Both the position numbers and the translations under genes were made by a program. From NCBI RefSeq assembly GCF_019931195.1, contig NZ_JAIOUO010000004.1, forward strand, positions 186,001-250,000: 64,000 nt of DNA, written 5' to 3'. The notes below the pieces were generated by a model. The model did not search any database. It was given only the letters and a program-made list of their open reading frames with translations, and had not been told where the DNA came from. Source of the stretch: Marinobacter sp. F4216. GTDB taxonomy: Bacteria > Pseudomonadota > Gammaproteobacteria > Pseudomonadales > Oleiphilaceae. Shown one piece after another: positions 21,972 through 51,426 of the stretch; the first letter of the stretch is position 1; every line of letters begins with the position of its first letter.

Positions 21972-22643
21972 GTGCAAAACTATTGGGCGGAATTCGTGAC
22001 GGTAGCCGTGGTGCACTTGCTGGCAGTGGCCAGCCCGGGGCCGGATTTTGCCGTGATGCTGAGGCAAGCTCTGAGCCAGAGCCGCAGCAACGCCCTGCTA
22101 ACGGCTCCGGGAATTGGCCTGGGCATTCTGGTGCACGTAAGCTATTCGCTGCTGGGAATAGGGCTGCTGATACAACAGTCGGTATGGTTGTTTAATGTGC
22201 TCAAGGTCGTCGGCGCCCTCTACCTCACCTGGATCGCCCTGCAATGCCTGAAGGCCAGGGCTGGCGATGTGCAACTGGAAAGCGCAACGGGACGCGGACA
22301 GACCGGCTTCGCGGCGTTTCGGCTGGGGTTCCTGACCAACACCCTCAACCCCAAAGCGACCCTGTTTTTTGTATCCCTGTTTTCCGTGGTGATCAGTCCG
22401 GATACCCCGGTGCTGATGCAGGCCGGCTACGGTCTATACATGGCGCTGGCCACAGGCCTGTGGTTTTCCCTGGTGGCGGTTTGCTTCACCATGCCCAGGG
22501 TGCGACAGCAGTTCACGCGCTTCGGCCACTGGCTCGACCGCCTCATGGGTGGCGTGCTCCTGCTGCTTGCCGGGCAGCTCCTGCTGGCTACAGTGAGCGG
22601 ATCAGAGCCTCCGTCTGCGCCCAGCCCAGACACGGATCGGTAA
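21972..22643 (+). CDS. LysE/RhtB-family exporter
   Basis: 223 residues, GTG start with AGAGGAG 11 nt upstream. Five to six membrane helices and the family motif near the N-terminus (LLAVASPGPDFAVMLRQALSQSRSNALLTAPGIGLG), with the internal FRLGFLTNTLNPKATLFFVSLF. Members export amino acids such as lysine, homoserine or threonine. Its 3' end overlaps the convergent DAHP synthase gene by 56 nt. Confidence 0.87.
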   Translation: MQNYWAEFVTVAVVHLLAVASPGPDFAVMLRQALSQSRSNALLTAPGIGLGILVHVSYSLLGIGLLIQQSVWLFNVLKVVGALYLTWIALQCLKARAGDVQLESATGRGQTGFAAFRLGFLTNTLNPKATLFFVSLFSVVISPDTPVLMQAGYGLYMALATGLWFSLVAVCFTMPRVRQQFTRFGHWLDRLMGGVLLLLAGQLLLATVSGSEPPSAPSPDTDR

Positions 22644-23643
22644 TCGAGCAGCCGTAGATCAGGTCCTCGCCATCGTTCTGGCGGCCTGGCTCGAGGAAGC
22701 TTTCCAGCATCAATCCCCGAATATGGCGCAGTCCGTTACGCTGCTGTTCCATCACCTGCCGGGCAATATCCACCTGACGCTCGGCCTGCTTGCAGGCGTT
22801 GTCATGACTGCAATCGACCATGACCGACGTCAGCAGTTCATGTTCGGCAAGATTGGCCGCAGCCGCAGCAATACTGTCAGCATCGTAGTTGGTGATGCCC
22901 CGACCGCCCCGCAACACCAGATGGGTGTCCGGGTTGCCACTGGTGCTGATCATGGCTGGCGCACCGGTGGCGGATACGCCCATATGATGATGGGGATGCG
23001 CCGCCGATTTCATGGCATTGATGGCAACACTGACCCCGCCATCGGTTCCGTTCTTGAAGCCCACGGGCATTGGCAAGCCGCTGACCATTTCACGGTGTAC
23101 CTGGGATTCTGTGGTGCGGGCACCGATGGCCGTCCAGCTCACCAGATCACCCAGGTAATCCATAGCGAAGGGACTCAGTGCTTCGGTGGCGAGTGGTAAG
23201 CCCATGGCAGACAGGTTAGACAGCAGCCGGCGGGACCGGACCAGACCACTGTGTATATCACCGCTGCCGGTGCGCTCAGGATCGTACAGCAGACCTTTCC
23301 AGCCAACACTGGTACGGGGCTTTTCCAGGTAGGCCCGCATCACGATAAGGAAGCGGTCACTTACCTCGTCCGCCAGGCGCTTGAGCTTTTCACCGTATTC
23401 CAGCGCCGCCACTTCGTCGTGAATGGAGCAAGGCCCGACCACCAGCAAGGTACGGTGATCATCGCCCCGAAGGATGTTTCGAATCGCCGACCGATGCTTC
23501 GCAATCCGTTGCGCCACGCCAGCTTCCAGTGGCATGGCCGCCCGCAGGGCTTCCGGTGTCGGCAGTGCAGTTTCCGTGCGCCGTCCTTTCATGGCTTCAG
23601 ACGCTACCTCGTTCAGTACCTCGGTGCTTGGCGGCATGTTCAT
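22588..23643 (-). CDS. 3-deoxy-7-phosphoheptulonate synthase (class I DAHP synthase)
   Basis: 351 residues from M-N-M at 23643. It catalyses the first step of the shikimate pathway, condensing phosphoenolpyruvate with erythrose 4-phosphate. Visible features are VVGPCSIHD, MRAYLEKPRTSVGWKG, GARTTESQVHREM, PVGFKNGTDG and VMVDCSHDNACK, all typical of AroF/AroG/AroH enzymes. Which aromatic amino acid inhibits it cannot be read reliably. Upstream lies a 19-codon leader peptide with eight aromatic codons and a terminator hairpin directly before the gene, so expression is probably set by ribosome-mediated attenuation. The 3' end overlaps the convergent LysE gene. Confidence 0.94.
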   Translation of the reverse strand: MNMPPSTEVLNEVASEAMKGRRTETALPTPEALRAAMPLEAGVAQRIAKHRSAIRNILRGDDHRTLLVVGPCSIHDEVAALEYGEKLKRLADEVSDRFLIVMRAYLEKPRTSVGWKGLLYDPERTGSGDIHSGLVRSRRLLSNLSAMGLPLATEALSPFAMDYLGDLVSWTAIGARTTESQVHREMVSGLPMPVGFKNGTDGGVSVAINAMKSAAHPHHHMGVSATGAPAMISTSGNPDTHLVLRGGRGITNYDADSIAAAAANLAEHELLTSVMVDCSHDNACKQAERQVDIARQVMEQQRNGLRHIRGLMLESFLEPGRQNDGEDLIYGCSITDPCLGWAQTEALIRSL

Positions 23644-23674: not shown

Positions 23675-23711
23675 AAAAAAGCCCCGGCTGGGCTACCAGT
23701 CGGGGCTTTTT
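23675..23711 (-). terminator. Attenuator hairpin in the DAHP synthase leader
   Basis: A GC-rich stem GCCCCG / CGGGGC extended by CCAG/CTGG-type pairs, followed on the minus strand by six T. It stands upstream of the DAHP synthase start codon and downstream of the leader peptide, the position of a transcription attenuator. A separate 7-bp hairpin (GGCAGCC / GGCTGCC, 23721-23748) lies between it and the leader stop. Confidence 0.8.
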
Positions 23712-23775
23712 GAATCCGGTGGCAGCCTGGTTTGTCTGCCGGGCTGCCTTCCTCGTTGTTCGTTTGATGAAGATC

Positions 23776-23835
23776 TTACGGGCGGCCCGGGCTCTGGCTA
23801 AAATAAAAGCCATAACCAAACCACCAAGAAAACAC
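23776..23835 (-). CDS. Aromatic leader peptide for DAHP synthase attenuation
   Basis: Nineteen codons from a GTG at 23835: MFSWWFGYGFYFSQSPGRP, then TAA. Eight of 19 residues are Phe, Trp or Tyr, including W-W and F-Y-F. An AGG motif lies 7 nt before the GTG. The same frame is open further upstream to an ATG at 23913 (MKTTHATCQ...), so a longer peptide is possible. A -10-like TATATT with TTGCCA 18 nt before it lies around 23919-23950. Ribosome stalling at these codons when aromatic tRNAs are uncharged would favour read-through of the terminator at 23675-23711, as in trp and pheA leaders. Confidence 0.75.
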   Translation of the reverse strand: MFSWWFGYGFYFSQSPGRP

Positions 23836-23999
23836 AGCAGCGCCTGCCGCCTTCAGGTTTTCACCGAAAGCGCTCAGAACGTTCAATTGACAGGTAGCGT
23901 GTGTCGTCTTCATGCTGATCAATATATACCCTGCATTTCGGGCTTGGCAACCCCGAAAGCCCAAAGATCCGAATTCGTCGACCAAAGACGGGACCGCTC

Positions 24000-49745: not shown

Positions 49746-49826
49746 GTGCAGGGACTGAAGCTGACAGCGAGGCGAGGCGTTCTGACCTCCCGCGCAACAC
49801 GATGGTGGCGATGGCGCAACGGCTGA
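49746..49826 (+). CDS. trp leader peptide
   Basis: A 26-codon frame from GTG (49746) to TGA (49826), with GGGAG 9 nt before the GTG. It ends in R-W-W-R-W-R-N-G: three Trp codons within four positions. It lies between gph and trpE, the position of trp attenuation leaders in gammaproteobacteria. Downstream (49838-49872) a stem CAGAC / GTCTG extended by TGCG / CGCA can form, but I see no T-tract, so whether control is by terminator or by another RNA switch is unclear. Confidence 0.8.
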
Positions 49827-49938: not shown

Positions 49939-51426
49939 ATGACACCCGAGCAGTTTGCCAAGCTCACACAAGACGGCTTTAACCGCATTCCCGTTCACCG
50001 CGAAGTCCTCGCGGACCTCGACACACCACTGAGTACCTACCTGAAACTGGCCAGCGGCCCCTACTCCTACCTGTTCGAATCCGTTCAGGGCGGTGAAAAG
50101 TGGGGCCGTTACTCGATCATCGGCCTGCCCAGCCAGGAAGTACTGAAAGTGTTTGATCAGCGGATTGAAGTGCGCCGGTACGGTGAGCTGGTGGAAGAAG
50201 CGGAAGTCGAGGATCCGCTCGCTTTTGTCGAGCAATACCAGGCTCGGTTCCGGGCACCGGATCTGGACCACCTGCCCCGATTCAATGGTGGCCTGGTGGG
50301 CTACTTTGGCTACGACACCGTTCGCTATATCGAAAAGCGGCTTCGCCAGACCTGTCCGCCGGACAAGATCGGCACGCCGGACATCCTGCTGATGGTGTCT
50401 GATGAAATCGTCGTATTCGATAACCTGCGGGGCAAACTGCACCTGATCGTGCACGCCGATCCCGCCATTGAGGGCGCCTTCGAACACGCCCAGGCTCGCA
50501 TCAACGAACTGGAAAACCGCCTGCATCGCCAGACCTCTGACGCACCGCGCACCCCCGAGCACCTGCGCGGCAAGGCTGTGGATGAGAGCGACTTTGTGTC
50601 CGGTTTCAGTCAGGAAAAATTCGAAGCCGCCGTGGGCAAAATCAAGGAATACGTGCTGGATGGCGATGTCATGCAGACCGTCATCTCCCAACGCATGTCC
50701 ATCCCCTTCGAAGCACCACCCCTCAACCTGTATCGCTCATTGCGCGTGCTCAATCCGTCCCCCTACATGTACTTCCTTGACCTTGAGGATTTCCACATTG
50801 TTGGCTCGTCACCGGAAATCCTGGCCCGGGTCGAAGACGACGAAGTGACGGTGCGCCCCATTGCCGGCACCCGCAAACGCGGCGCCACCGACGCCGAAGA
50901 CAAGGCGCTGGAAGCGGAACTGCTGGCCGACCCGAAAGAGATCGCCGAACACCTGATGCTGATTGACCTGGGCCGGAACGACGCCGGGCGAGTGTCGGAA
51001 ACCGGCACCGTCAAGCTAACCGACAAGATGATCGTCGAACGCTATTCACACGTGATGCATATCGTCTCCAATGTGACTGGCCGATTGAAGGAAGGCACCA
51101 GTTGCCTGGACGTACTGCGGGCGACCCTGCCGGCCGGCACCCTCAGTGGCGCACCGAAGATCCGCGCCATGGAGATCATTGACGAGCTGGAACCGGTCAA
51201 GCGGGGCGTTTACGGCGGTGCTGTCGGGTACCTGTCGTTCAACGGCAACATGGACACCGCCATTGCCATCCGCACCGCGGTGATCAAGGACAACACCCTG
51301 CACATTCAGGCAGGGGCCGGCGTGGTGGCGGATTCCGTGCCCCGCCTTGAGTGGAAGGAAACCATGAACAAAGGTCGCGCCATTTTCCGCGCAGTCGCCA
51401 TGACCTACAACGATTTCGACCACTGA
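49939..51426 (+). CDS. trpE: Anthranilate synthase component I
   Basis: 495 residues. Converts chorismate with ammonia from TrpG to anthranilate. The N-terminal Trp-binding region holds [26 protein letters not shown]. The catalytic C-terminal part has [77 protein letters not shown] and [18 protein letters not shown]. Upstream lies the trp leader peptide. trpG, trpD and trpC follow; trpF, trpB and trpA are not in this window, as in Pseudomonas-type genomes. Confidence 0.96.

Follow-up and report, generated by a model that had tools for sequence, protein, structure and literature searches.

A Phe-, Trp- and Tyr-Rich Leader Peptide and a Predicted His-Like Attenuator Upstream of a DAHP Synthase Gene in Marinobacter and Other Pseudomonadales

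A Predicted Attenuator Upstream of the DAHP Synthase Gene

The DAHP synthase gene in the analysed stretch of Marinobacter DNA (64 kb, hereafter the window) is preceded by a region that most probably works as a ribosome-mediated transcription attenuator and controls this gene through a chain of six RNA segments resembling that of the his operon. We put the probability of this reading at roughly 0.87. Ribosome-mediated attenuation had already been proposed in the original prediction, and it is now supported by the coding constraint on the leader ORF, the conserved terminator, the co-varying alternative helices and a simulation of ribosome stalling, although this support is weaker in some relatives.

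The source genome has a size of 3.66 Mb and belongs to the genus Marinobacter, which is placed in the order Pseudomonadales in NCBI. The product of the structural gene matched TIGR00034 (aroFGH) with 429.3 bits (curated cut-off 173.2) at an E-value of 8e-129. The features of the locus are collected in Table 1.

Table 1. Features of the leader region and the DAHP synthase gene in the window.
Feature	Position	Strand	Remarks
-35 element TTGCCA	23945..23950	minus	together with the -10 element, 10/12 consensus matches
-10 element TATATT	23921..23926	minus	ends 7 nt 5' of the leader ATG
Leader ORF, 45 codons, MKTTHATCQLNVLSAFGENLKAAGAAVFSWWFGYGFYFSQSPGRP and stop	23776..23913	minus	ATG 23913, stop 23778-23776
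Aromatic codon block FSWWFGYGFYF (codons 28-38)	23800..23832	minus	overlaps segment A
Segment B, CCGGGCCGCC, final codons of the leader ORF	23781..23790	minus	partner C in the predicted antitermination state
Segment C, GGCAGCCCGG	23739..23748	minus	predicted partner B or D
Segment D, around GGCUGCCA	23720..23730	minus	predicted partner C (protector hairpin) or E (antiterminator)
Segment E, UGGUAGCC	23691..23698	minus	within the terminator (5' arm and loop)
Intrinsic terminator, E:F hairpin and T run (six T)	23675..23711	minus	-23.4 kcal/mol
DAHP synthase, type I (aroF/G/H family)	22588..23643	minus	first ATG 23643; longest ORF from TTG 23676

The two promoter elements are spaced as TTGCCA-18-TATATT (23950-23921, minus strand), and most of the distinct Marinobacter regions (80 in total) were seen by eye to have either TTGCCA or TTGCAA at -35. 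The arms of the C:D protector hairpin (23748-23739 and 23730-23721) lie between the aromatic block and the ATG of the DAHP synthase gene, which in the window comes directly after the leader terminator. The predicted hairpin and the strong intrinsic terminator upstream of the structural gene were thus borne out (Table 1). Meanwhile, no Rfam family reached its gathering score in the window, the trp, phe and his leader families included.

According to the proposed mechanism, the leader ATG or a position beside it would be the start of transcription, and the polymerase would be trailed by a ribosome. When the charging of Phe-, Tyr- or Trp-tRNA falls short, the ribosome would stall in codons 28-38 and leave segment B free; B would then pair with C and D with E, no terminator would form and the DAHP synthase gene would be transcribed. 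With all three tRNAs charged, the ribosome would move over B, the C:D hairpin would form, followed by E:F, and transcription would stop. If the leader is not translated, segment A would fold onto B, likewise favouring termination. We infer both the stalling and the sensing of Phe, Tyr and Trp individually from sequence and folding.

The Leader Peptide Is Encoded by a Conserved 45-Codon ORF

The sequence FSWWFGYGFYF was the sole site with at least eight F, W or Y per 11 codons in the six frames of the 64 kb window. No such site occurred in 100 first-order Markov simulations of the window, and sites with at least seven per 11 codons arose at 0.010 per 64 kb. The aromatic codon run is thus beyond chance expectation, which argues against an ordinary terminator that merely stands next to a chance aromatic-rich ORF. 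The conservation of the peptide, the terminator and the alternative pairings across families argues against it as well. What can be said for this explanation is that a terminator scan is weak when taken alone (five terminator-like sites in 3 kb vs. 2.8 expected), and we give it practically no credence.

The original prediction described a 19-residue aromatic peptide. Its eight F, W or Y residues were confirmed, but the 19 residues from GTG 23835 (VFSWWFGYGFYFSQSPGRP) are only the C-terminal end of the conserved ORF that starts at ATG 23913. The start at GTG 23835 was rejected because both coding constraint and whole-codon length changes reach up to this ATG. The coding constraint was estimated on 58 Marinobacter leaders of 45 codons, 53 of which were distinct. 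For these 53 sequences, the shifted frames had pN/pS ratios of 1.09 and 0.77, compared with 0.44 for the frame of the ORF; in this frame, the ratio was also below 1 upstream of GTG 23835 (0.54 and 0.51) and amounted to 0.21 in codons 27-38. The length of the leader changed by whole codons only (43-49 aa) in the 80 distinct Marinobacter regions. These were obtained from 112 of 116 regions, among which one species may occur repeatedly; L059, L128 and L144 were left out for their start pattern and L002 as a paralog.

Synonymous change was low from codon 27 onward (pS of 0.18 and 0.11 vs. 0.43 in codons 16-26), which suggests that an RNA constraint is superimposed on the code from this codon on. 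Codons 39-45 are only weakly constrained at the amino acid level (pN/pS of 0.77), yet little change was seen at all three codon positions; conservation of RNA segment B would produce such a pattern. As a separate observation, codons 2-13 (23910-23875, minus strand) contain no aromatic codon, and C8, Q9, N11 and V12 are nearly fixed among the 53 distinct Marinobacter sequences. No NCBIfam family matched the three leader peptides searched, and no Pfam family matched the two searched.

Such fixed residues could also be read as traces of a TnaC-like arrest of the nascent peptide, in which the signal for the ribosome would be a small molecule, such as a free aromatic amino acid, and not an empty tRNA. 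Besides the four residues near the N-terminus within Marinobacter, the invariant G35 and the nearly invariant F38-S39 in the diverse leaders of profile A2 would fit an arrest peptide. Against it stand the low change at all positions of codons 39-45 despite their pN/pS ratio, and the aromatic residues themselves, whose number and order vary between leaders (FSWW, FFWW, YWCSSEFFF, YYFGYWF). To our knowledge, the known arrest peptides show no such variation in residue number or order. We therefore regard peptide arrest as improbable and keep to a ribosome that reads tRNA charging.

The distance from the -10 element to the leader ATG is 6-7 nt in the Marinobacter regions, as expected of a leaderless or near-leaderless message. 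The ORF apparently has a leaderless ATG start, the start site being judged from this spacing. By eye, GGAG stands 5' of the ATG in the loci of family f20 (L070-L074 and others), and the leaders of Marinobacter, L068, L071 and L147 look leaderless. A switch of the start mode within one attenuator family is possible.

Alternative RNA Pairings Co-Vary

In the predicted chain, C:D is mutually exclusive with B:C and with D:E, and D:E is mutually exclusive with the terminator. An alignment-free swap test was used for the examination of these pairings. For this, each segment was paired with its own partner and with the partners of 16 other representatives. The sample consisted of 17 of the 43 representatives and covered five families and 15 genera (g45 and g96 twice); swaps within a family were included, and the hairpin arms of L068 and L149 were set by hand.

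The native B:C duplexes had an energy of -19.6 kcal/mol vs. -16.1 kcal/mol for the swapped ones and beat the median of their row in 13 of 17 cases. The corresponding values were -16.6 vs. -13.2 kcal/mol (16/17) for D:E and -16.8 vs. -13.1 kcal/mol (12/17) for C:D. For each of the three pairings, none of 20000 permutations was as good (p=5e-5). As the representatives share descent, these p-values serve as a guide only, and more reliance can be placed on the negative controls. The pairings B:D and C:E were tried as extra alternatives and rejected, being without co-variation (p=0.38 and p=0.84, respectively; 8/17 each).

The RNA letters vary between families, and the pairings recur. The D:E helix is formed by GGCUGCCA/UGGUAGCC in Marinobacter, and by GACUGCCA/UGGCAGUC in L068, L154 and L162. 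Helices containing one mismatch each are formed by GGGUCGCC/GGCAACCC in L072 and by GGGACGCC/GGCUUCCC in L156. We conclude that D:E and B:C, as predicted pairings, co-vary and that the antiterminator excludes the terminator. A local hairpin GGCU..AGCC within the aromatic codons, suggested by the Marinobacter sequence, was also considered and dropped, as by eye it is missing from most of the f20 and f43 leaders (GGGUAUUGGUUUAGCC).

Predicted Selection Between the Two States by the Position of the Ribosome

The window leader was folded with a ribosome halted at each codon and with the RNA extending through segment E. With codons 24-37 in the P-site, the probability of D:E was 0.93-0.99, and from P-site codon 38 through the stop codon that of C:D was 0.87-1.00. 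When the footprint (12-20 nt) and the transcript end (five values) were varied, the last antiterminating P-site codon ranged from 35 to 38. The simulated boundary between the on and off states thus lies at the end of the aromatic block or no more than about two codons from it; in several settings F38, the last aromatic codon, ended up on the terminating side. As a tRNA-starved ribosome waits with the hungry codon in the A-site, stalls in the block would antiterminate. In slightly longer transcripts, the P-site codons 27-29 included one or two that turned terminating.

With segment B shuffled, the probability of D:E averaged 0.16 instead of 0.98 and was below 0.5 in 257 of 300 shuffles. In the window leader folded with no ribosome, C:D reached 0.72 vs. 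0.26 for D:E. D:E also formed at many stall positions 5' of the aromatic block, which means that the block is not the sole antiterminating place. When the full terminator was present, termination was always favoured in equilibrium folding of the window leader; the switch must therefore be kinetic. In other attenuators, switching is likewise a matter of timing.

The scan was extended to 27 of the 43 representatives. Stalls at aromatic codons were antiterminating in 169 of 194 cases, and codons past the last aromatic codon were terminating in only 118 of 178. With the ribosome at the stop codon, termination was favoured in 17 of the 27 sequences and antitermination in 9, and one was undecided. 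None of the aromatic codons was antiterminating in L147 (0/7) and L075 (0/8). In several f20 leaders, segment C starts so near the stop codon that a ribosome standing there would cover it, and these leaders may rely on the release of the ribosome instead.

Distribution of the Leader

The leader was found in all 35 genomes of the same genus that have readable upstream DNA. Two of the 37 Marinobacter genomes were left out, namely G015 (paralog only) and G027 (cut by a contig end). In G015, which is 99%-complete, the paralogous DAHP synthase gene was found and the leader-controlled one was not. The terminator hairpin was present in all 42 folded representatives and, by eye, in L078. The check on relatives for a loss of the peptide and the terminator thus revealed no such loss (35/35 and 42/42, respectively).

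When named genomes were scanned with an alignment of the leader peptides, 64 loci were obtained, all of them labelled Marinobacter. Within the order, profile A2, built from diverse leaders, matched 56 of 390 genomes at E <=6e-5, the next value following after a gap at 0.0016. The matches fell into families f1 (18), f7 (2), f20 (15), f38 (6) and f43 (15). Profile A1 matched 137 of the 390 genomes at E <=1; as many of these matches are plainly due to chance, the counts given here rest on A2. A DAHP synthase gene was located downstream of the leader in 32 of 34 loci of the first set and in 9 of 12 further loci. The loci without it (L150 and L165 in the first set, L212, L214 and L215 in the second) are all weak matches with E-values of 4e-4 or worse.

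At the class level, 15 of 369 genomes matched at E <=0.05. Besides G000 and G055, the loci of G588 and G642 were inspected, and the remaining 11 matches are weaker. G588, a genome from outside the order, has the leader with a DAHP synthase gene behind it; G642 has a leader match without this gene. No such leader was found upstream of 14 paralogous or more distant DAHP synthase genes (L002, L039-L051), and one Pseudomonas-type leader found no match in a plasmid collection. Given its absence from these 14 genes and its presence in 56 of 390 genomes of the order, the leader is tied to one type of DAHP synthase and is by no means a general feature of either the order or the class.

Relation to the Pseudomonas sRNA P15

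The Rfam model RF00627 (Pseudomonas sRNA P15) matched 7 of the 13 genomes tested, once each, and in five of them the match was over the gathering score. All seven matches overlapped a leader found by the A2 peptide profile, with a DAHP synthase gene downstream. At the gathering score, the model also gave 4 hits among 20 loci. The match spans the end of the leader ORF, the next hairpin and the terminator. In view of the overlap in all seven genomes, P15 is probably the terminated attenuator RNA of the DAHP synthase leader. As the Pseudomonas model matches in family f20, we call this family pseudomonad-like.

No match to P15 (gathering threshold 70 bits) was found in the window or in the whole genome G000, nor at E up to 1 in the Marinobacter locus L001. 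Six genomes of families f1, f7 and f38 gave no match either, locus L154 (f38) scoring only 22.8 bits (E 0.58). Since the model does not match, the Marinobacter leader is not filed under P15; judged by its sequence, it occupies the homologous position without being a member of the P15 family, and the link consists of the peptide, the place and the switch.

In PMC2375449, P15 is listed with the sRNAs that Livny et al. detected; it is catalogued as an sRNA gene, and the accessible text describes no leader peptide or link to DAHP synthase. Its detection as an sRNA in P. aeruginosa would suit an element that is mainly a gene of a trans-acting small RNA, with its ORF and its location ahead of the DAHP synthase gene being incidental, and attenuator RNAs can indeed act in trans, as described for rnTrpL of S. 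meliloti in the text available from PMC7298713. A cis role is argued for by the coding constraint on the ORF, by the co-varying antiterminator and by the constant place upstream of the DAHP synthase gene in five families and one genome of another order. We consider a mainly trans-acting sRNA to be very improbable, and the cis-acting attenuator remains the preferred reading.

Which Amino Acids Are Sensed

Phe, Trp and Tyr all occur within the last 20 residues of the leader in 80 of 80 Marinobacter regions and in 41 of 41 other loci; among the latter, the leaders of L156 and L159 were read separately, and both contain the three residues. The order G-Y-W-F-S is seen in the majority of leaders from families f20 and f43. 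The claim that one leader mixes all three aromatic amino acids therefore holds for the relatives as well as for the window, and we infer that all three are sensed. Since all three branches are entered through DAHP synthase, an OR gate would be a sensible arrangement at this place.

Alternatively, the same attenuator may respond to one or two amino acids, for instance Phe alone, with the other aromatic codons being neutral. In Marinobacter, F38 and Y37 (53/53 distinct sequences each) are nearest to the switch point. A precedent is the AroR peptide of C. glutamicum, which has Phe-Tyr-Phe while its operon is unaffected by the availability of tyrosine, as stated in the accessible part of a review (PMC11802643). 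The retention of Phe, Tyr and Trp without exception in the 80 Marinobacter regions and the 41 other loci speaks against such a restriction, as do the recurring G-Y-W-F-S order and the fact that codons for all three amino acids fall in the antiterminating range. We hold a response limited to one or two amino acids to be possible, if rather unlikely.

Neighbouring Small ORFs

A second small ORF, often rich in Y, W and F (e.g., MNTTYYRYYRNSDWRFSS...), was seen between the terminator and the DAHP synthase gene in 25 of 41 non-Marinobacter loci (L070, L072-L074, L076, L077, L079, L080, L146, L148, L151, L153-L157, L159, L160, L162, L204, L206-L208, L210 and L211), together with the nucleotide motif GATTTA[GC]C. 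In the non-Marinobacter loci inspected by eye, no T-run terminator was present 3' of this ORF, which is perhaps a translational second step.

Three proposals can be taken together: an OR gate for the three aromatic amino acids at the pathway entry in several families of Pseudomonadales, P15 as its terminated product, and the second small ORF, present in many genera, as a serial second step of ribosome sensing. For this combined reading we see the chances as evenly balanced.

Elsewhere in the window, a small ORF ending in RWWRWRNG and a stop codon (49746-49826, plus strand) lies before trpE (49939-51426). This ORF is a candidate trpL-like leader, judging by its sequence. No T-run terminator was obvious behind it by eye.

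Discussion

The enterobacterial his attenuator consists of six segments, in which the pairings A:B, C:D and E:F alternate with B:C and D:E. The computed pairings of the window leader form the same chain. The his leader peptide has 16 residues, seven of them encoded by His codons, and starts behind a Shine-Dalgarno sequence; unlike it, the window leader has mixed F, W and Y codons within 45 codons. Ribosome-mediated attenuation through aromatic codons is likewise used by trpL and pheL of E. coli and by peTrpL of S. meliloti. These leaders deal with one amino acid each and belong to a terminal branch, whereas the window leader precedes the common first step. The trpL transcript of S. meliloti starts at its ATG, as is proposed for the window leader, according to the available text of PMC7298713 on trpL.

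Leaders before DAHP synthase genes are not unprecedented, as far as the accessible parts of the papers on C. glutamicum aroR and the Acholeplasma uORF show. The first of them, aroR, precedes the DAHP synthase gene aroF and also combines an aromatic leader peptide with attenuation (PMC11802643, PMC4046766). It is actinobacterial, contains F-Y-F and, in the portions available from these two sources, responds to the limitation of Phe and not of Tyr; the likeness to the window leader is one of description only. In Acholeplasma, the uORFC-13-1 motif before aroF likewise comprises a uORF with Phe codon(s) and a terminator before a DAHP synthase gene; it belongs to another phylum, represents another motif, and phenylalanine alone is noted in the accessible text (PMC8632094). 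The same text mentions an older attenuator proposal for E. coli aroF. A table in PMC2659441, another paper available in part, cites for E. coli aroF an "attenuator sensing tyr-tRNA", and RNA-motif candidates before aroF and aroH of Shewanella are given there as gammaproteobacterial DAHP synthase genes with a predicted 5' regulatory RNA. Both cases come from another order, the available part of that paper describes no leader peptide with three aromatic amino acids, and here, too, the likeness is by description only. Regarding protein-based control, the synthesis of DAHP synthase in E. coli is repressed by TyrR and TrpR, as noted in the part of PMC11802643 at hand.

The kind of attenuator is thus known. 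Among the matches listed from the open-licence literature, no description of the three-amino-acid leader of Pseudomonadales, its his-like switch or the link to P15 was found, and earlier print may exist. Panina 2001 and Vitreschak 2004 reportedly deal with gammaproteobacterial attenuators, and an earlier prediction in these works is possible. The main text of PMC2965389 contains 0 mentions of aroF and DAHP.

DAHP synthase determines how much material enters the synthesis of every aromatic amino acid. A 45-codon gene is added here to a stretch that would otherwise be called intergenic. If the proposed reading is true, one RNA leader would monitor simultaneously how far three tRNAs are charged, and the Rfam sRNA family P15 would gain a concrete, testable role. 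For metabolic engineers of Pseudomonas and Marinobacter, the leader would then be a likely brake to remove.
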